Shown in pieces: positions 1-26,768 of a stretch of DNA of 35,030 nt. Every line of letters begins with the position of its first letter. Within the stretch, counting starts at the first letter, position 1. Source of the stretch: Sulfurimonas sp. (GTDB taxonomy: Bacteria > Campylobacterota > Campylobacteria > Campylobacterales > Sulfurimonadaceae); NCBI GenBank assembly GCA_027064515.1, contig JAMOPL010000120.1, positions 1-35,030 of the forward strand. The letters run 5' to 3'. The notes under the pieces are model-generated. The model worked only from the letters and a program-made list of their open reading frames with translations, searched no databases and was not told the DNA's origin. The translations under genes and the position numbers were made by a program.

Positions 1-1060
1 TATCACCAAAAACACCCATTGCAAGCACTACTACAGAACTAATACTGAAGTTTATTGTCATATAGACACTATTAATAAAAGTAGGCATTTTTGTCTCTAC
101 TTCATGAATCACTGACAACATAATAGGACCATTAGCAAACATAAAAAGACCTAAAAAGGCTAAAAGTGGAAATGTAGTATAAACGGTGCTGCTAAATAGA
201 AAAAGTGTCATGGTTAAGGCTGCGCCACTCGACATGATTACCAATGTCTTTTGTCGGCCTATTTTATCAGAAATTGTTCCACTTAAAAAAGTACCAATAA
301 CACCAAAAAACTGTAAAATAGAAAGAGCAATACTTGCATACCAGAGGGAAAAACCATGCTGCGTGAGATAGACTGCAAGATAAAGTGTCACAGCCATTTT
401 CATGGCTGATTGAAAGAACATAAATCCGCTCATCACCCCAAAAAGAGGTAAAAAACGTTTCACTTCAGCCATTGCATCACCCTTTTCAGCTTTTTTAGTA
501 AACTTCTTTTGAGTAAATGTAAAATCTTTTAGTCTAAAATAAAGAATAAATGAAGCCAAAAAACCAAATGGCATCAATTTCCACGTACCCTCCAATCCCC
601 AGAGCGAAACAGCTCCCGTTACAAGTAAAGGACCTACAGTCCGAGCCAACTCTCCACCGACCATATAGTAACTCATACCCCGTCCTAATTTCTTACCCGA
701 TGATGCTTTGATAATTCCAGGAGAGGGGATATGAAAAAGTGTTGAACTGACACCTGATATAGTAAGAAGTATCACTAACATTGCATAAGAGTCTGTAAAC
801 CCTAAAAGAGACATACTAAAAGCAGTAAGTGCCGGAGAGAGTATGACAAAATAGCGTGCATCTGTCCTCTCAGCCAAAAGCCCAAAAAAAGGATTCAACA
901 AAGAGGGCAGTTTTCTTGCTATATCTAAAAAAGCACTCATTGCGAGCGTCATACCAAGCTTCTCTATCAAAAGTGGTAATAAAGGAGCTAGAAAAGCTGA
1001 ATAGGTATCATGAGCCAAGTGCGCCAATGAAATTGTTATGACATGGTTTTTTTGTTGCAT
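1..1060 (-). CDS. MFS transporter, Fsr (fosmidomycin resistance)-like, C-terminus cut by the window edge
   Basis: The ORF track misses this gene because its stop lies before base 1. Read leftward from the ATG at 1060, the frame stays open for about 353 codons and begins MQQKNHVITISLAHLAHDTY. The early 'SLAHLAHD' stretch followed by hydrophobic segments and a 'GLLAERTDAR' loop is typical of the Fsr branch of the major facilitator superfamily, whose members export drugs or metabolites by proton antiport. About ten membrane segments are visible before the edge. A second cytoplasmic MFS loop reads 'GTISDKIGRQKTL'. No clear Shine-Dalgarno sequence precedes the ATG. The gene follows the DUF302 gene by 17 bases on the same strand and may be its operon partner. 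The substrate is unknown; the family call is by sequence pattern only. Confidence 0.8.
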   Translation of the reverse strand, partial: MQQKNHVITISLAHLAHDTYSAFLAPLLPLLIEKLGMTLAMSAFLDIARKLPSLLNPFFGLLAERTDARYFVILSPALTAFSMSLLGFTDSYAMLVILLTISGVSSTLFHIPSPGIIKASSGKKLGRGMSYYMVGGELARTVGPLLVTGAVSLWGLEGTWKLMPFGFLASFILYFRLKDFTFTQKKFTKKAEKGDAMAEVKRFLPLFGVMSGFMFFQSAMKMAVTLYLAVYLTQHGFSLWYASIALSILQFFGVIGTFLSGTISDKIGRQKTLVIMSSGAALTMTLFLFSSTVYTTFPLLAFLGLFMFANGPIMLSVIHEVETKMPTFINSVYMTINFSISSVVVLAMGVFGD

Positions 1061-16852: not shown

Positions 16853-17449
16853 TTATTTGTATGCTTTATCCCATCCATAAGGAGCACCTTGAACACCTTT
16901 GCCTCTAGAGGCAACTCGTTTTCTATATATTTTGGAAACTTCTTGTTCATCTCCAACTATTAAAGCTTTTGTAGAACACATAGCAGCACAAATAGGTACT
17001 TTGCCCTCTGCAATTCTATTTTGTCCATAAAGTTCTCTCTCTTTTGCACTATTTGTTTCTTCTGGTCCACCAGCACACATAGTACATTTATCCATAACCC
17101 CTTTAGTGCCAAAAGCACCATCTCTAGGAAACTGAGGAGCTCCAAATGGACATGCATATAAACAATACCCACAACCAATACATTTTTCTTTATCATGAAG
17201 AACTATTCCATCCTCTCTGATATAAAAACAATCCACTGGACAAACTTGCTCACAAGGAGCATCAGTACAATGCATACAGGCAACTGAAGTTGAAAATTCT
17301 TTTCCAAAAATACCCTCATTTAGAGTCACAACTTTTCTTCTACTTATACCAACAGGAAGCTCGTGAGCTTCAGCACAGGCAACAGTACAACCATTACACT
17401 CTATACATCTCTCTTCGTCACAATAAAATTTCATTCTAGCATAATTCAT
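16853..17449 (-). CDS. fdhB: Formate dehydrogenase iron-sulfur subunit (beta)
   Basis: This 198-residue ferredoxin-type subunit relays electrons from FdhA to the cytochrome b. It has four cysteine clusters for four [4Fe-4S] centres: 'CIECNGCTVAC', 'CMHCTDAPCEQVCP', 'CIGCGYCLYACPFG' and 'CTMC' with 'CAAMC' later. There is no Tat signal, as expected for a partner carried out with FdhA, and no C-terminal membrane anchor, so FdhC provides the anchor. A strong GGGGGTGA ribosome site precedes the ATG, 10 bases after fdhA. Confidence 0.95.
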   Translation of the reverse strand: MNYARMKFYCDEERCIECNGCTVACAEAHELPVGISRRKVVTLNEGIFGKEFSTSVACMHCTDAPCEQVCPVDCFYIREDGIVLHDKEKCIGCGYCLYACPFGAPQFPRDGAFGTKGVMDKCTMCAGGPEETNSAKERELYGQNRIAEGKVPICAAMCSTKALIVGDEQEVSKIYRKRVASRGKGVQGAPYGWDKAYK

Positions 17450-17459
17450 CTCTCACCCC

Positions 17460-20291
17460 CTACGCTTTTTCTATGCGGCATAATCCGCCTTTAGTTTCAG
17501 GTAACTGAGTGATGATATCATAACCATAGTTTGTAACAGTATTTGCACTCTCACCAACAGCATAAGGTTCTGTTCCCTCAGGATAGTTTCCTGTTCTATC
17601 TTCACCCTGAAAGAATCCAGCAAAGTGAAATGGTATAAATACCCTATCTTCACCTACACTGTAAGAGTAGTGAGCTTTAACCTTTATCTTAGTGCCTTCC
17701 GGTGAATGAATCCACATCATGTCTCCATTCCTAATGCCGTGATTTGCAGCCAGATTTGGATTTATGTCACAGAACATTTCAGGAGTAAGAGCAGATAGAT
17801 ATTTACTAGCTCTCGTTTCAAGTCCGGCACCACTCATATTTACAAGTCGCGCTGTAATCAAATTGATAGGGAATTCTTTGCTCCAATTTTCTTTGTTTTG
17901 AACACTTGCATATTTCGTATCCACTCTATAGTGATTTGGCTTATCTTTATAGGTTGGATATTTCTTAACCAAATCTTCTCTTGGTGAGTGAATTGGCTCT
18001 CTGTGCATAGGAATCTGATCAGGGAATGTCCATACTTTTGCCCTTGCTTTTGCATTTCCATAAGGTGCAATTCCTCTTTCCATACATTTTTGGGCAATTA
18101 TATTACTTGTATCAACTTTCCAGTTTTTACCAATTCTTTTTTTCTCACTTGCAGTTAATTTAATACCAAGGACTTCTTCAATATTGTCTGCTGTAATTTC
18201 AGGGTAACCATCTGGATTTGCTGAATCTTTTGGTGCTGAATTTTTACCTGCTAATAAACTTACTCCATCATGCTCAAGACCAAATCTATTTCTAAATCCC
18301 ATACCACCTTCTTTTACACTTCTATTTATATCGTATAAAATAGGGCTTCCACTATGTGTTTCAGTCCATACAGGCCATGGTAATCCATAATATTCACCTT
18401 TAACTGGTCCAATTCCTCTAAGACTTACTTCATCAAATAGATGCCAATTATCAGTATGGAATTTTAATCTTTTAGATGTCCAACCAGTTAAACCGATAGT
18501 TTTAATAATTCTTGCAATTTCATCTGTTGCATCTTCAGGAAATTTAAAAGATTTTTTATTTTCTTTTATTAACATACCTTTTGTATATTCTTCATAAAAA
18601 CCTAATCTTTTTGCAAGTTCAAACATAATTTCATGATCTGGCTTACTTTCATACATAGGTTCTACTACTTTATATCTCCATTGAGCTGAACGATTTGTAG
18701 CAGTAACTGAACCACTAGACTCAAATTGAGTAGCAGCTGGAAGTATAAATACATCATCTTTTTTATCTGTTAACATTGCAGCTTCATTTACAAATGGATC
18801 TGCTAATACTATTAACTCTAAATTATCTAATGCTTCTTTTACTTTGGCTTGTTGTGCAATTGATGTAATACCATTACCCATTACAAATAATGCTTTTAAG
18901 TTTGTCCCTGCATTATCTATCTTATCTTCACCTGGTCTTCCAGCTAACACACCTGAATACCATTTTGCTAAAGTAAATCCTTTTGCATTCATCCATTTTT
19001 TAGATTTAAATCTTCCTTTAAGCCATTCATAGTCAACTCCCCAAGATTTTGCAAAGTATTTCCAAGAACCATCTTTAAGTCCGTAGTATCCTGGTAGAGT
19101 ATGCGATAAACAACACATATCCGTTGCACCTTGAACATTATCATGACCTCTTAAGATATTACATCCACCACCTTCTACTCCCATATTTCCTAAACATAGT
19201 TGTAAAATTGGAGCCATTCTTGTATTTGATGAACCAATTGAGTGTTGAGTAAGTCCCATAGCCCATATTAAAGTACCTGGAGTAGATTTTGCATAAACTC
19301 TAGTTATTTGCATAAGTAATTCTTCAGATACCCCTGTAACATCAGCTACTTTTTTAGGATTCCATTTTTTTGCTTCTTTTTTAATATCTTCTACACCATA
19401 AACTCTATCGTTGATAAAGTTCTTATCTTCCCATCCATTTTTAAATATAATATGTAGCATACCATACATAAATGGAATATCAGTTCCTGGTCTAATTTGT
19501 GCAAAATAATCAGCTTTTGCAGCTGTTTTTGTCATTCGCGGATCAACTACAATTATCTGAGCATTATTTCTTTCTTTTGCTTTTAAGAAATGTCCAAAAC
19601 CAACTGGATGGTTTACTGCTGGATTTGCTCCAAATATAATAATAGCTTTCGCATTTTGGATATCTCCAAGTGAGTTTGTCATAGCGCCATAACCCCATGT
19701 ATTCGCCACACCGGCGACTGTTGCACTATGTCAAATTCTAGCTTGATGATCTATATTGTTTGTCCCATACATTGCAGCAAATTTTCTAAAATAATATGCT
19801 TGCTCTGTACTCATTTTTGCTGAACCTAAAAAGATTGTACTGTCTGGTCCGCTTGTTTCTCTTAAACTATTCAATTTTTTTGAAATTCGATCATAAGCTG
19901 TATCCCAACTGATTCGCTTCCACTGACCATTTTCTTTTACCATTGGATATTTAAGTCTTGCTTCTGATCTAACCATATCGATCATATCAGCACCTTTACA
20001 ACAATGTCCACCTTTACTAATTGGATGGTCTTGTGCTACTTCTTGTCTTACCCATACACCATTTTGAACCTCTGCTGTAATTCCACAACCTACTGAACAT
20101 GAAGTACATATTGTTCTTACTTTTTTAGATCCAGGAAATGGGTTTTTTACCTCTTCTTCCGTTGCTGCTCTTGTTACATTTCCACTAGCAATTGCACTAG
20201 TAGCTCCAAACGCGCCTGCAATTGCAGCCATTTTTAGAAATGAACGACGACCCACCTTGGTCGATAGAGCATCTTTTGTATTTGTATTCAT
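17460..20291 (-). CDS. fdhA: Periplasmic selenocysteine formate dehydrogenase, catalytic subunit (Sec187)
   Basis: FdhA oxidises formate to CO2 at a W/Mo bis-pterin centre. The ORF track splits it into 19731-20291 and 17460-19709 at an in-frame UGA (19733-19731). Joined, it is 943 residues with selenocysteine at 187 in 'NIDHQARI-U-HSATVAGVANTWGYG', exactly where the family places the catalytic residue. The N-terminus is a Tat leader ('GRRSFLKMAAIAG'). A [4Fe-4S] motif follows: 'CTSCSVGCG' with 'GHCCKG'. Bases after the UGA fold as a SECIS hairpin. The last 600 bases are clearly richer in GC than the middle of the gene (see findings). The Mo/W operon next door supplies its cofactor. Confidence 0.97.
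19703..19733 (-). promoter_or_regulatory. fdhA UGA codon with bacterial SECIS hairpin
   Basis: After the UGA (19733-19731), TCGCC (19717-19713) pairs with GGCGA (19707-19703) around the loop GGTGT. The loop begins 18 bases after the UGA and contains a GU, the SelB-recognised feature of E. coli fdhF and fdnG SECIS elements. Confidence 0.85.
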
Positions 20292-20322: not shown

Positions 20323-20523
20323 TTATACAGCTGAACTGTAAAAATCTTCCCAAGCTTTTGTTTTTTTGTAAGTTATCTCTTTTTTAGGTGAATGACCTAC
20401 AACAACACCGTTTGAACTATATGGCTTTTTATTTCCACTTGCTAATGCACCAACAGCACCAACAGTTACTGCTGCGGCACCAACACCCATAAGCTTTTTT
20501 AAAAAGCCTCGTCTATTTTCCAT
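20323..20523 (-). CDS. Small Tat-signal protein of formate dehydrogenase regions
   Basis: A 66-residue protein with a twin-arginine leader (MENRRGFLKKLMGVGAAAVTVGAVG) and a short mature part ending 'TKAWEDFYSSAV'. This matches the small 'formate dehydrogenase region Tat target' family that nearly always lies just before fdhA in Campylobacterota and relatives. It has no cofactor motif; a role in assembly or export of FdhAB is proposed for the family but not shown. It lies 31 bases before fdhA and downstream of the hairpins at 20571-20621, so those would control it together with fdhABC. Confidence 0.85.
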   Translation of the reverse strand: MENRRGFLKKLMGVGAAAVTVGAVGALASGNKKPYSSNGVVVGHSPKKEITYKKTKAWEDFYSSAV

Positions 20524-20570
20524 AATAAGCTCCCCTTTTCATAAATTTACCTTATAAATACATAATTTAA

Positions 20571-20621
20571 AAGGCTACATAAAATAACTACTATTATCTT
20601 ATGTAGCCTTTAGGGCTACAT
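20571..20621 (-). terminator. Two mutually exclusive hairpins between the torD-like gene and fdh (attenuator-like)
   Basis: In the leftward transcript, segment 1 (20621-20614, ATGTAGCC) can pair with segment 2 (20608-20601, GGCTACAT) over a 5-base loop, or segment 2 can pair with segment 3 (20580-20573). The 2-3 hairpin extends to 12 bp and is followed by TTTT, so it looks like a terminator. Segment 1 includes the stop codon of the torD-like gene. Confidence 0.65.
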
Positions 20622-21401
20622 CTCACTTAAACCATTCTCATCTTCAAAATAATCATCTTCTAAAGCACAACTTTGCATTACAGATTCAGCTGCTTTATTA
20701 AGTCTGTTCTGTGCCCTTCTTTTTTCTTCTTCTGTACTTATAAATGTACAAGATTCTTGCGATTTTTTTCTATCTGTCTCTTTTGGTTTTGGTTTTTTTA
20801 CATCAAAATATAATCGTTCAAATTCCATAAATGCATTAAGTACTATAGCCAATGACTTATATACGTTTGATTTATCATGTTCGTATAATTCAATTATAAA
20901 TTGATCTATAAATTCATTAATAACTTCTGCAAATAAACAATGTTGTAAGGTTTCATATGAAGTTTCACCTTGGATAATAAGTTCTACTAATTCATACATA
21001 AAAGTAACTAAAAAACTAACACTATCTTCTGTTTCTTTAAATACTTTTTCATTTCTTCTTATTCTAGTTTTTCCTAAAAAATTTCGAACTTCTAATGTTT
21101 TTTTACCACTTTCAAATCCTTCTTCATAAAATGAAGCTGTAGTTCTTATATTTTTTGTTACAGGATTATGAAAAATTTCATCGTATTCTTTTATTAATAA
21201 TTCTTTTCCACCAATATTTAAAAACTCTTTGATCTCTTTTAATGCTTCACAAGAGTTCTCATCTAATGGATTTTGTATCAAAATATCAATTATCTCTATT
21301 ACATTTGCAAATCTATCTTCAGATTCAGTAAAAACCAACATTTGACTTAGTAAGCCATAATATAATGATCTTGCTGGATTTATATCATCTTGTTTTTTCA
21401 T
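20616..21401 (-). CDS. TorD-like chaperone for formate dehydrogenase
   Basis: A 261-residue soluble helical protein of the TorD/DmsD family. These proteins bind the Tat leader of molybdoenzymes and help cofactor insertion. 'ARSLYYGLLSQMLVF' at the N-terminus, 'LLIKEYDEIFHNP' and 'TTASFYEEGFESGK' are the usual blocks, including the 'Y..lF..P' and 'S.Y..e' patterns. After about residue 200 there is a charged, low-complexity tail ('KPKPKETDRKKSQES') and an acidic end, longer than in TorD itself but seen in the Campylobacterota fdh version. It starts 2 bases after the ferredoxin-type gene and its likely client is FdhA. Confidence 0.85.
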   Translation of the reverse strand: MKKQDDINPARSLYYGLLSQMLVFTESEDRFANVIEIIDILIQNPLDENSCEALKEIKEFLNIGGKELLIKEYDEIFHNPVTKNIRTTASFYEEGFESGKKTLEVRNFLGKTRIRRNEKVFKETEDSVSFLVTFMYELVELIIQGETSYETLQHCLFAEVINEFIDQFIIELYEHDKSNVYKSLAIVLNAFMEFERLYFDVKKPKPKETDRKKSQESCTFISTEEEKRRAQNRLNKAAESVMQSCALEDDYFEDENGLSEM

Positions 21402-21403
21402 TT

Positions 21404-23089
21404 TTAACCCTTTATTTCATTTTGTTTATTTAAATATTCTTGTAAAGTTACTTTTGGTTTACAATCAGCACAACAATATAATGCTCTTATTCTTGCTTTA
21501 TCATCTCCAAATCTAGGTGCCATTATACTTGCAATTTTTTCTATAGATTTTACTGTGGCAAATTCAATTCCGCATTCAACACACTTAAATAACTCATCTT
21601 TAGCCATAATATTTTTTATGAAATATTTTTTATTTAATTCTATCTCATCGTATATAACCTCCAAACAATCTTTTTCTGGACAGATAAATTCACAATATCC
21701 ACAGTCAGTACAAAGAGATGGATTAAATCTTAAACTATTATCCTCAGGGTGAGCAGTAAGGGCTTTAACATTACAAGCACCAACACATGCTAAACATAAA
21801 GTACAATTTGATTCTTTTATTTTTATATTTCCATAATGAATATGCTCACCAGTTTTTATAATACCTAAATCATCATCTCCCACTAAATGAAATAATCTAT
21901 AAGTAAAGATTTCTCTTTTATCTAAATCTTGGTCATAATGATTAAATTTACACTCGCTTAAATCTTCTAAATTATTTTGAGCATCTATAAGCTCTTCTTC
22001 ATCCATACAGACATATATTGCCTTTTTATTATATTTTCTTTGAAAAATTTCATTAATTAATGTAATTGCATCTCCTGTTCCTTTAGAGATAAAATCTGTA
22101 TAAAATATTATTGGTTTACCACTTGTTTGAAGTAATATTAAAAAATGCACTTCATCTAAAAATTTTCTACCTTCTATAGCCAAAGGTAAAATATTTTTTT
22201 CTAAAGATGGATGAAAATTATCATTTATTAGTTGTTCTGGTATTACTAAGGCTACAGTATCTTCATAAAATGAAGCGATTTGAGAGAATAAACTTCTAGG
22301 CATTTGAGTAAAATCTAATGCACCAGATGGGCATACACTTACACATCCTCCACATCCATGACAATCAATATTTGAAAATTCTAAATGTTTTTGTTCATCT
22401 ATTTTCATAATTGCCACAGTTGGGCATACATCAGCACATTTCCCACAAATTTCTGTCTGTCTTTCATGGTATTGGCATATATCAGGATTATACTTTATAT
22501 AATTTTTATATTTATATTCAGGGATATTATTTTTAATTGTATCTAATATATTTTCTATATCTTCAATATTTGGATCATATACGCCATTTTGTTTAGTTGC
22601 AAAATATGGCGCATCAAACCATATCATTTGATCTGTTTGCAAAGAGATATTATCTTCATTTTTTTTAATGGTTATTTTTAAATTCCCAATATGACCATCT
22701 ACATCCAATATATCTGTTGGCTTAAATATAAATAAGTCAAATTCATTTTCATTTAATTTTGATATTATCGAATCTATCTCTAATTTATTATCTGAAATAA
22801 TAAATAGTTTTTTACCAACTTCCTGACTATAATCAAGATCCAAAGAAGAATCATATTTTTCAAGTCTTATATCATAAAGTTTTTTTATATTAGTTATTTT
22901 ATTACTAATATCATCTTTTGTATTATCAATATACATATTTATTTCTGGTGCATAAATTAAAGAGTGTTTACTTTTGCAATTTGAAATTAAATACTCAGAA
23001 GATAAGTTTAAGTTATCTACAATATGGATTGATTCATCTAATGGAAAGTCTAATGGTGAGTCGTTATAAAATAAATAAGCTTGTTTCAT
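21404..23089 (-). CDS. Multi-[4Fe-4S] ferredoxin-type protein of the fdh operon
   Basis: A 561-residue protein without signal peptide. The first 195 residues have no motif I recognise. Then come ferredoxin-like clusters: 'CGKCADVCP', 'CHGCGGCVSVCP', and after a second linker domain 'CTLCLACVGAC' and 'CTDCGYCEFICPEKDC'. The C-terminus has two CxxC pairs ('CVEC', 'CADC') around 'IASIMAPRFGDDKARIRALYC', possibly a zinc or extra Fe-S site. Proteins like this accompany fdh operons in Campylobacterota. It is cytoplasmic, so it may be an electron carrier for a cytoplasmic process or an assembly factor. It is the first gene of the leftward fdh operon, behind a 9-bp inverted repeat. Confidence 0.85.
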   Translation of the reverse strand: MKQAYLFYNDSPLDFPLDESIHIVDNLNLSSEYLISNCKSKHSLIYAPEINMYIDNTKDDISNKITNIKKLYDIRLEKYDSSLDLDYSQEVGKKLFIISDNKLEIDSIISKLNENEFDLFIFKPTDILDVDGHIGNLKITIKKNEDNISLQTDQMIWFDAPYFATKQNGVYDPNIEDIENILDTIKNNIPEYKYKNYIKYNPDICQYHERQTEICGKCADVCPTVAIMKIDEQKHLEFSNIDCHGCGGCVSVCPSGALDFTQMPRSLFSQIASFYEDTVALVIPEQLINDNFHPSLEKNILPLAIEGRKFLDEVHFLILLQTSGKPIIFYTDFISKGTGDAITLINEIFQRKYNKKAIYVCMDEEELIDAQNNLEDLSECKFNHYDQDLDKREIFTYRLFHLVGDDDLGIIKTGEHIHYGNIKIKESNCTLCLACVGACNVKALTAHPEDNSLRFNPSLCTDCGYCEFICPEKDCLEVIYDEIELNKKYFIKNIMAKDELFKCVECGIEFATVKSIEKIASIMAPRFGDDKARIRALYCCADCKPKVTLQEYLNKQNEIKG

Positions 23090-23221: not shown

Positions 23222-24373
23222 GTGAAAAAGGTTGTTTTTCTTTGCGTAGTAATAGTTATTTCTTTATATTTCTTTATATCTAAAAAATCAGATTATAAAG
23301 AGATAATATTTGGCTCTTCCCTTTCTATTCAAGGAACAAATAAGCAATTAGGGAATGAGGTTGTAGAAGGTATAAATACGTATTTCAAATATATAAACGA
23401 TAATAATGGTATTAAAAATAAAAGTATAAAATTTATATATTATGATGACAAATACGAGCCACAAAACACTCTTGTAAATACTAAAAAATTAATAAAGAAT
23501 AAAAATCTTTTTGGATTACTTGGATATATAGGAACTCCAACAGTTAAAAAGATTTTACCTATTATTGGAGATATTCCATTTATAGCACCATACACAGGTG
23601 CTTCTTTTTTAAGAACAACTACAAAAACAAATATTATAAATCTTAGAAGTTCATACAAAGAAGAGATAGAAAGTATTGTTAACTATTTATATGATAGTAA
23701 ACATATAAGAAGATTTGCAATATTTTATCAAAATGATGATTATGGAATAGATAATTACAATGCCATTGTAGAAGCATTAAATAAAAAAAATTTAAAACTC
23801 ACCGGAGAAGGGACATATAAAAGAAATACTTTATCTATTAAACATGCCTTATTAGAGATAAAAAAGACAAATCCACAAGCTATAATACTTGCAGGCGCTT
23901 ACAAACCAAGTGCAATTTTTATAAAACATGTAAGAGAAAATTTTACAAATAATGTTATATTTGTACCTATATCTTTTGTAAATGCAAATGCACTAATAAA
24001 AGAATTAGATTATAAAGGCATAAATATAATTTTTTCACAAACAGTTCCTTCTTATACTAATAAAAATTTATTAATCGCGCAAGAATATTTAGAATTATTA
24101 CAAAAATATTATCCAAATTCTAAGCCATCATTTGCATCCTTTGAAGGATTTATTTCTGCTAAAATTGTAGTAAGAGCTTTAAGAAATATCAAAGGTGATA
24201 TAACTCAAGATAAATTTTTAAATAACTTAAAAAATTTTAGAGATTTAGATTTAGATGGCATTACAATAAATTATAAAAATAATCAATTATTAAATCAAGT
24301 TTATTTACTATATTTTAAAAATAAAAAATTTTATCAAATAAATGGAAAAAAGAGCAATGATAATTGCATATAA
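23222..24373 (+). CDS. Periplasmic ligand-binding protein of the branched-chain amino acid type (sensor partner)
   Basis: The protein has 383 residues, a GTG start and a good AGAGG ribosome site. An N-terminal hydrophobic segment (residues about 4-18) anchors or exports it. The body matches the type I periplasmic-binding fold (LivJ/AmiC-like, peripl_BP_6): 'FGSSLSIQGTNKQLGNEVVEGI' at the start, 'GLLGYIGTPTVKKILPII', 'FAIFYQNDDYGIDNYNAIVEAL' and 'PQAIILAGAYKPSAIFIKH'. No ABC permease or ATPase of this type is nearby. Its gene runs straight into a histidine kinase gene, so it probably presents a ligand to the kinase, as in other sensor systems with a detached binding protein. Ligand unknown; formate or a related acid is a guess from context. 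Confidence 0.8.
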   Translation: MKKVVFLCVVIVISLYFFISKKSDYKEIIFGSSLSIQGTNKQLGNEVVEGINTYFKYINDNNGIKNKSIKFIYYDDKYEPQNTLVNTKKLIKNKNLFGLLGYIGTPTVKKILPIIGDIPFIAPYTGASFLRTTTKTNIINLRSSYKEEIESIVNYLYDSKHIRRFAIFYQNDDYGIDNYNAIVEALNKKNLKLTGEGTYKRNTLSIKHALLEIKKTNPQAIILAGAYKPSAIFIKHVRENFTNNVIFVPISFVNANALIKELDYKGINIIFSQTVPSYTNKNLLIAQEYLELLQKYYPNSKPSFASFEGFISAKIVVRALRNIKGDITQDKFLNNLKNFRDLDLDGITINYKNNQLLNQVYLLYFKNKKFYQINGKKSNDNCI

Positions 24374-25970
24374 TAAAATAAACCTATTTTTAAATAAATT
24401 AAAATTTAATAGCAAAACAAAAATACTAATATCAATCACAATACTAAGTATGATAATGATTATTTTTTTTATGTTTATTTCTATATTTGCTATTAAATAT
24501 GACTATGAGAATTTATATCATAAAACTACAACTTCACAAATCAATCTTGAACAAATAAAAGATATTTATACTGTAAATTTCTATGATACATTGTATGATG
24601 TAACACAAAAAAATATAAATAAAGATGATGCCATAGAAGTAATAAAATTAGCAAAACAGCTTGTACAAATAAGATGGGAAAAATATAATGCTTCAATTAA
24701 CTATAAAATAGGAGGAATTTCTCAGTTCGCAACTAATTGGTTAGATTTTTTTCTCTTTAGGGATCAAAAACAAATAAAAAGTTTTTATCAAGATAGTTTA
24801 AATAAAAAAATTATTATTAAAATTAACAAGATTAATAATACAGCCGATAAAATTATATACTGTCTAAACAAAAATGAATATAATTTAGCTAATAAATTTA
24901 TAGATGAGATATTTTTAGATATTAAGTCTATAAATATCTCATTGTCTAGTTTAATTAATTATTCTTTAAATAAGGCTATAGAAGAAAAAAACAAAAATGA
25001 TACAATGTTTAATACAAGTATTTTCATGTTGATATTACTTATTGGTTTCACATTTTTTTTAAGTATTTTAATATCATTTACTATTATAAATCACTTTAAA
25101 GAGCTACATAACTCTTTAGAAGATAAGGTATTTCAAAAAACAAAGGAATTGAGAGTTTTAAATAGTTCTTTAGAAGTTAAAATTAAAAAAGAGATAGAAA
25201 ATAGTCGTAAAAAAGATCAAATTATGTTTCAACAAGCAAAATTAGCTAGCATGGGAGAGATGTTACAAAACATTGCTCATCAATGGAGACAACCTCTTGG
25301 TGCAATTATGATGATAATACAAAGTTTTCAAACAAAATTTTATGCTGGAAAATTAAATGAAGAATTTATAGAATCACGAGTAAATGATGCTTTTACTTTA
25401 TCTAAAAATATGTCAGCAACACTAGAAGATTTTCAAACATATTTTAATCCACATAAAATAAGAAAACAATTTTATCTAAAAGGTGTTATTGAAAAATCTA
25501 TACAACTTAGTAAATATCAATTAACAAAAGAAAATATACAGATAAAAATAGATATTAAGCATGATGTTAAAATATATAGCTATGAAAATGAACTTACACA
25601 TATCCTTTTAAACTTAATTAATAATTCAAAAGATGCATTCGTAAATAAGCATATTAACAATAAAACAATATTAATAATTGTAAAAGAGAATCAAGAGTTT
25701 ATTATTATAAACTTTATTGATAATGCAGGTGGAATTAAAGAGGATATAATACAAAAGATATTTGAACCATATTTTACAACTAAACACCAAAGTGTAGGTA
25801 CAGGAATAGGCTTATATATGTCAAAACAAATTATAGAAAAACATATAAAAGGTAAAATAATGTATAAAAATATAAAATATAAAATAGATTCAACAAAAGA
25901 AATACTAGATAAATGTGCTATGTTTGTTTTAGAGATACCAAAAAAATATAAGGATGCGAATCATGAATAA
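24342..25970 (+). CDS. Membrane sensor histidine kinase
   Basis: A 542-residue kinase with one membrane helix near residues 30-50, a periplasmic helical region of about 180 residues, a second helix near 225-250, then a coiled coil ('LEDKVFQKTKELRVLNSSLE'). The phospho-acceptor His is in 'MGEMLQNIAHQWRQPLGAI', the form common in Campylobacterota. The ATP-binding domain shows the N box 'HILLNLINNSKDAF', G1 'IDNAGGIKEDI', F box 'IFEPYFTTK' and G2 'GTGIGLYMSK'. The first 32 bases overlap the binding protein gene; an ATG at 24357 is an equally possible start. The response regulator gene overlaps its 3' end. Confidence 0.9.
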   Translation: MEKRAMIIAYNKINLFLNKLKFNSKTKILISITILSMIMIIFFMFISIFAIKYDYENLYHKTTTSQINLEQIKDIYTVNFYDTLYDVTQKNINKDDAIEVIKLAKQLVQIRWEKYNASINYKIGGISQFATNWLDFFLFRDQKQIKSFYQDSLNKKIIIKINKINNTADKIIYCLNKNEYNLANKFIDEIFLDIKSINISLSSLINYSLNKAIEEKNKNDTMFNTSIFMLILLIGFTFFLSILISFTIINHFKELHNSLEDKVFQKTKELRVLNSSLEVKIKKEIENSRKKDQIMFQQAKLASMGEMLQNIAHQWRQPLGAIMMIIQSFQTKFYAGKLNEEFIESRVNDAFTLSKNMSATLEDFQTYFNPHKIRKQFYLKGVIEKSIQLSKYQLTKENIQIKIDIKHDVKIYSYENELTHILLNLINNSKDAFVNKHINNKTILIIVKENQEFIIINFIDNAGGIKEDIIQKIFEPYFTTKHQSVGTGIGLYMSKQIIEKHIKGKIMYKNIKYKIDSTKEILDKCAMFVLEIPKKYKDANHE

Positions 25971-26619
25971 AAAAGATTTTGATATATTGAATAATTTTAA
26001 TATATTGTATATTGAAGATGAAGAGGATTTATTAAAGCACACCACATCTGTTTTAGAAGATTTTGCCAAAAATATTTATGCTGTTAAAACTTGCAAAGAT
26101 GCTATTGAAATATTACATAATAATCATGTAGATGTAATTATTTCTGATATATTACTTAAAAATGAAAGTGGTATAGACTGTTTAAAACAAATAAGAGATG
26201 AGCTTAATTTGGATATTCCAGCTATACTGGTTACTGCACATACAAATAAAGAATTTTTAATGGATGCAATTGAGCTTAAAATTGAGAAATATATAATTAA
26301 ACCAATAAGCATAAAAGAGTTAATAAATACACTACATGATATATTTTTACCAAAATTAAAACAAAAGGAAATAGATCAAGCAAATAATATTATTAAATTA
26401 ATATCAATAGTAACAGATGGAAAACAAGTTGAACTTATTAATTTTATTATAAACAATTTAGATAATGAAAATATGTTAAATTATTCATATAATAATATTA
26501 TGGAACATATAGATATAAGCAAGCCAACAATTATAAAAATATTTAAACAGCTTTTGGATCGAGAAATCTTAGTAAAAATTCAAAATGGAAAATATTATTT
26601 TAACGAAAAAAATCTATAA
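25954..26619 (+). CDS. Response regulator with C-terminal winged-helix-like segment
   Basis: The 221-residue protein has a receiver domain (about 10-130): acidic pair in 'YIEDEED', phospho-acceptor Asp in 'VDVIISDILLKNESG', Thr in 'ILVTAHT' and Lys in 'KYIIKPIS'. The remaining 90 residues do not look like OmpR, NarL or NtrC output domains. Near the end 'HIDISKPTIIKIFKQLLDREILVKIQNGKYYF' resembles the recognition helix and wing of a small MarR/Crp-like HTH, so it probably binds DNA. It overlaps the kinase gene by 17 bases. Likely targets are the fdh or sel operons, by position only. Confidence 0.88.
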   Translation: MRIMNKKDFDILNNFNILYIEDEEDLLKHTTSVLEDFAKNIYAVKTCKDAIEILHNNHVDVIISDILLKNESGIDCLKQIRDELNLDIPAILVTAHTNKEFLMDAIELKIEKYIIKPISIKELINTLHDIFLPKLKQKEIDQANNIIKLISIVTDGKQVELINFIINNLDNENMLNYSYNNIMEHIDISKPTIIKIFKQLLDREILVKIQNGKYYFNEKNL

Positions 26620-26670: not shown

Positions 26671-26768
26671 GGGAGGTATATGACCCTGGTGGGCATCACG
26701 GGCTTCAACCCCGATGTTTGGATAGTTGACTATCCAAAGGGAGGTTCGATTCCTTCACCTTCTCGCCA
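26671..26768 (+). tRNA. selC: tRNA-Sec (UCA anticodon)
   Basis: The 98-base gene has the anticodon loop CTTCAAC (anticodon TCA at 26705-26707), which reads UGA. The variable arm is a perfect 9-bp stem, TTTGGATAG/CTATCCAAA, with loop TTGA, diagnostic of tRNA-Sec. The T arm is regular (GGAGG, TTCGATT, CCTTC) and CCA is encoded (26766-26768), with discriminator G. The D stem looks like six pairs with a 4-base loop. The acceptor arm is odd: 5' GGGAGGT pairs with 3' ACCTTCTC for six positions including two G-U pairs, then needs a bulge. It is the tRNA that SelA and SelB of this window act on. Confidence 0.92.

Follow-up and report, generated by a model that had tools for sequence, protein, structure and literature searches.

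Stems cut by RNase III process transcripts in operons and leaders, as in T7 early mRNA and the E. coli pnp leader, and 5' stem-loops of the ompA type stabilize mRNAs by placing a hairpin ahead of the ribosome-binding site of an abundant gene. The element described here, at the boundary between a torD-like chaperone gene and the fdh genes of a formate dehydrogenase (FDH) operon, bears a likeness to both. With RNase III processing sites it shares a transcript stem roughly two helical turns long, in a genome that encodes RNase III; it differs in that we infer the cut, that its arms would re-pair with flanks on both sides, and that it recurs order-wide in a single operon type. As with ompA-type stabilizers, the hairpin lies upstream of the ribosome-binding site of an abundant gene, although here it is mostly operon-internal and has a second, exclusive pairing. 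Attenuators of the trp-leader type also use alternating exclusive pairings, but our element has neither a terminator tail nor a leader peptide and occurs without the upstream gene. Finally, the Moco RNA motif is, like our element, a leader RNA of molybdo-/tungstoenzyme genes (PMC2408646); our element is instead a single hairpin plus one arm, and an Rfam scan of the window (the whole 35,030-nucleotide stretch of DNA analysed) gave no Moco match.

The source genome of the window is incomplete and falls in the Sulfurimonas group; it carries an RNase III gene (TIGR02191, 240.6 bits), and among named relatives Sulfurimonas sp. NORP9 is the closest (chaperone 67% identical). The features that concern us, in order along the minus strand, are as follows.

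21404-23089, minus strand: 4Fe-4S protein gene, in a same-strand run with torD, fdhX, fdhA and fdhB
20616-21401, minus strand: TorD-like chaperone gene (PF02613)
20614-20621, minus strand: arm 1 (ATGTAGCC), holding the torD-like TAG stop (20616-20618); partner of arm 2 (8 bp, -10.3 kcal/mol)
20593-20611, minus strand: arm 2 (AAAGGCTACATAAGATAAT), 5' side of a 19-bp stem; G20598 lies in the positioned G.U pair
20589-20592, minus strand: loop AGTA, 4 nt, not conserved
20570-20588, minus strand: arm 3 (GTTATTTTATGTAGCCTTT), completing that stem on its 3' side
20550-20559, minus strand: arm 4 (ATTTATAAGG), conserved; can pair with arm 3, which lies upstream of it
20530-20536, minus strand: Shine-Dalgarno-like AGGGGAG of fdhX, identified by eye
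20323-20523, minus strand: fdhX-type TAT protein of 66 aa (weak TIGR02811 match, below cut-off)
17460-20291, minus strand: fdhA, with an in-frame TGA (selenocysteine) at 19728-19730
16853-17449, minus strand: fdhB, FDH3 beta subunit (NF038355)

At the loci carrying the element, an in-frame stop occupies the selenocysteine (Sec) position in all 38 readable fdhA genes. A tRNA-Sec gene (26671-26764, plus strand) lies near the selenocysteine FDH operon of the window, and a divergent stretch adjoining that operon (23222-26619, plus strand) carries genes whose products look like a periplasmic substrate-binding sensor, a histidine kinase and a response regulator, a possible regulator of fdh. At another locus (L018, 547-605, minus strand, on the fdhA strand) there is a sub-threshold SECIS_3 match (33.3 bits, E 2e-4).

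The sequence GGCTACAT occurs on the plus strand at 20573-20580 and 20614-20621 and on the minus strand at 20601-20608, giving three 8-base arms, where the chance expectation for such an arm is 0.79 matches in the entire 35 kb. The original prediction had placed three arms here, with the torD-like stop codon inside arm 1, and the sequence agrees exactly on both points. The folding energy of the element (-29.9 kcal/mol, versus -17.5 with sd 2.9 in dinucleotide shuffles; z -4.3, none of 200 as good), together with co-varying pairs in relatives, sets the arrangement beyond chance. The short 1-2 hairpin stands as proposed, at 8 bp, whereas the 2-3 hairpin, thought to be of 12 bp, has 19 bp and a 4-nt loop, with the positioned G.U pair at G20598.U20583. 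Mutually exclusive pairings at the torD/fdh boundary were likewise correctly anticipated and are retained by relatives. Arm 4 had no part in that account; it offers the base of arm 3 an alternative partner (20565-20574 with 20550-20559), and predicted stabilities in the window are -22.6 (2-3), -10.3 (1-2) and -4.2 kcal/mol (3-4).

Of 399 Campylobacterales genomes, 179 yielded a TorD homologue, and 70 torD-fdhX junctions from these, with gaps of 55-150 nt, made up the comparison set. Every one of the 70 has the stem (17-34 pairs, median 20), in widely divergent sequences, with a median stem score of 16.6 as against 7.6 in shuffled gaps; junctions at which torD and fdhX overlap (family f11 and similar) leave no room, and the element is absent from them. 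Pair changes in relatives exceed both shuffled and slid controls, so that the check on paired changes proposed with the original prediction finds the pairing kept through co-variation. A strand-neutral finder counted G.U against A.C oddities at 137:32, and we therefore conclude that selection acts on the sense-strand (minus-strand) RNA. Thirty-five loci place a G.U at a distance of exactly six pairs from the loop; no other position is used by more than 9. Some torD-like matches carry in-frame stops (G260, G105, G388, G272, G268 and others), and are perhaps decaying paralogs.

The inverted repeat gives a stable fold on the plus strand too, as expected if it acted in the DNA as an operator or cruciform palindrome, or were a repeat with no function as RNA. 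Against this, sense-strand G.U greatly exceeds A.C, pairing persists while sequence diverges, and the hairpin pattern occurs only once in the genome; already disfavoured, this reading now seems scarcely credible. A plus-strand element was rejected despite its stable fold, since the G.U bias favours minus-strand RNA, and a dispersed repeat was rejected on the uniqueness of the pattern. The boundary feature is almost certainly a conserved RNA element, and sequence comparison shows it to consist of a sense-RNA-selected stem of ~20 bp with a positioned G.U and a competing, co-varying 3-4 pairing.

Several lines of evidence bear on the pairing of arms 3 and 4. In alignment A1, the 3-4 register has 83.8% of cells paired and a covariation of 0.386, where slid registers reach at most 58.4% and 0.165. 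Swapping arm 4 between divergent loci costs ~2.8 kcal/mol, the own partner being better in 54 of 56, and the letters of the pairing are family-specific (AAUCUCUU/AAGAGAUU, ACUUCUUG/CAAGGGGU, AAGUCUC/GGGGCUU, UAUCUC/GAGAUA and GCCACUU/AAGUGGU). Where arm 4 differs from arm 2, its pairing with arm 3 still holds in 59 of 105 cells; we estimate that random replacement would pair at most one third, and arm 4 is on that estimate more than a copy of arm 2. Support from tail shuffling is modest (p<0.05 in 15 of 68 loci) because AT-rich tails pair easily, and more weight belongs to the swap and register tests.

Arm 1 is patchier in its occurrence. Pairing of arms 1 and 2 is found in the window, NORP9, Kmv14 and most of the Sulfurospirillum-like group, while many other loci have the stop codon inside a separate small hairpin; own partners average -7.0 versus -5.1 kcal/mol for swapped ones and are better in 41 of 56, and the pairing is absent in many loci. 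Three extra FDH operons (L166, L168 and L171, in genomes G088, G113 and G207) have a non-torD gene upstream and keep 2-3 and 3-4, with no evident arm 1, and in long-gap paralogous operons the element sits beside fdhX, ~70-130 nt from the torD stop. From these torD-less and long-gap operons it follows that the element belongs to fdhX, and that arm 1 is an add-on where the torD message ends. In the ~60 nt before the element, the three torD-less loci share AT-rich sequence that is conserved and finishes with (T/C)AAAAT, 4-5 nt upstream of arm 2, and their transcripts might start at the hairpin base. Paralogous junctions with longer gaps (L089, L091, L094-L096) contain AATATGCAAA/TTTGCATATT-based palindromes between the torD stop and the fdhX element, often two per gap.

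The same observations weigh on the regulatory scheme of the original prediction, in which 2-3 is an intrinsic terminator promoted by a ribosome at the torD stop, and 1-2 the antiterminator. Arms 1, 2 and 3 exist, and several families keep the 1-2 pairing; the T run expected after the stem is absent (the sequence there is CCTTTTAAATT, three of whose T belong to the stem), and the site is not among the entries of a terminator scan of the window. Only 3 of 67 homologous stems are followed by a T-rich tail (at least 5 T in 8 nt), and, as an indirect argument from comparison, a ribosome ending torD is an awkward controller of an element that occurs without torD or far from its stop. The expected attenuation of FdhA runs opposite to Sulfurospirillum multivorans quantification (PMC4585668), where the downstream protein is the more abundant: FdhA2 (SMUL_2873) stands at 8.0-9.3, a value from membrane extract, and the upstream chaperone SMUL_2875 at 6.3-8.0. 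Translation or turnover could be the source of this gap. Attenuation here is very improbable.

Searches with a covariance model (R1) speak to specificity. This genome has one strong match (58.9 bits, E 6e-10), the next scoring 25 bits (E 0.04); all 44 forward-strand matches listed for other genomes at E<=1e-4 are immediately followed by an fdhX-type reading frame, and a phylum sample gave no match outside Campylobacterales at that threshold. Those weak matches outside fdh loci (E 1e-4 to 1e-3) that were inspected (L131-L133) fall within or ahead of unrelated genes; we set them aside as background. On these sequence grounds, the window holds one example of a conserved mRNA element, with arms 2, 3 and 4 as its core, that precedes fdhX-fdhA in the Sec-FDH operons of Campylobacterales. 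At one locus (L031, genome G386) the fdhX frame is apparently shifted (51 aa, only the TAT part fitting), by sequencing error or decay, and the RNA element is intact. Rfam has no match at the element, and assignment to a known RNA family was rejected accordingly. The literature searched does not describe it; the survey of Stav et al (2019, PMC6429828), which analysed Arcobacter sp. L, does not name fdh in its main text, and its supplements may contain the motif unnamed.

The reading we favour, with somewhat less than even confidence, is that the element forms a junction where the mRNA is processed and stabilized, at which we infer a cut. The stem, of about two helical turns, would be cleaved by a double-strand-specific RNase (RNase III being encoded), releasing the base-proximal half of each arm. 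Freed arm 2 would then form a hairpin with arm 1 that caps the torD message at its 3' end, and freed arm 3 one with arm 4 that caps the fdhXAB message at its 5' end, such that a scarce chaperone would be uncoupled from an abundant enzyme on a single original transcript. Where torD is not upstream, 2-3-4 alone would be kept, as a leader.

Several observations are consistent with this junction. Double-stranded stems of ~20 bp, a feature of RNase III sites, are present (median 20 pairs, 70 loci). The 3-4 pairing uses base-proximal nt, a median of 9 out of ~21, and in the window 1-2 occupies nt 4-11 of the 19 in arm 2; each is thus compatible with the half-arms that cleavage at mid-stem would leave. 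When cut RNA was simulated, 3-4 formed at 0.77 with own versus 0.49 with swapped arms (p 3e-8), and arm 2 paired with its own upstream sequence at 0.75 versus 0.63 when swapped (p 0.001), both p-values being inflated by relatedness among loci. In Campylobacter jejuni, RNase III processes an intramolecular duplex in pre-CJnc190 (PMC8687705). The excess of FdhA2 over the upstream chaperone in S. multivorans, and the torD-less operons that retain 2-3-4 with no evident arm 1, also agree with the junction. Against the cut, the uncut 2-3 stem is far more stable (-22.6 kcal/mol) than 1-2 plus 3-4 (-10.3 and -4.2); by comparison of loci, the 1-2 pairing is not general, and the torD-less operons would give a cut no clear purpose.

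The main alternative to a processing junction dispenses with cutting: a regulated switch in the fdhX-fdhA leader, in which a protein, small RNA or small molecule selects 2-3 or 3-4 and thereby governs translation or decay of the FDH mRNA, cleavage not being obligatory. Arm 3 does have two exclusive conserved pairings, and the element is specific to Sec-FDH operons and is also a leader without torD. Judged as a riboswitch with a ligand pocket, it is ambiguous; the conserved stem base motif and positioned G.U suggest a recognized structure, and arm 4 is conserved as well, but the loop and the stem middle are variable and so a binding pocket is not obvious. Access to the Shine-Dalgarno sequence shows no consistent shift between full-length and cut forms (8 up, 8 down), which led us to reject its sequestration by 3-4 and also counts against a switch, as does the much greater stability of 2-3. 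On balance we regard such a switch as possible but somewhat improbable.

An uncut stabilizing hairpin that blocks exonucleases or separates torD from fdhXAB decay, with arm 4 otherwise used (e.g., as a ribosome standby site), would accord with a long stable stem at every junction and the missing terminator tail; it leaves the 3-4 covariation, the near-constant stem length and the positioned G.U unexplained, and we think it unlikely. A broader proposal, which we consider rather improbable, is that of an undescribed order-wide class of cis-regulatory RNA for selenocysteine FDH, in which arm 3 would exchange arm 2 for arm 4, either on a signal (selenium, Mo/W, formate or redox state) or through a regulated cut, thereby setting the chaperone:enzyme ratio.

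Formate dehydrogenase is a main electron-donor enzyme in Campylobacterota, and post-transcriptional control of the C. jejuni FDH by FdhTU has been reported (PMC6682613). The conserved element at fdhX is a concrete site at which to test such control in other groups of the phylum. Should the cut and recapping hold, one transcript would yield two end-protected messages, a compact means of fixing the ratio in which a chaperone and its client are made.
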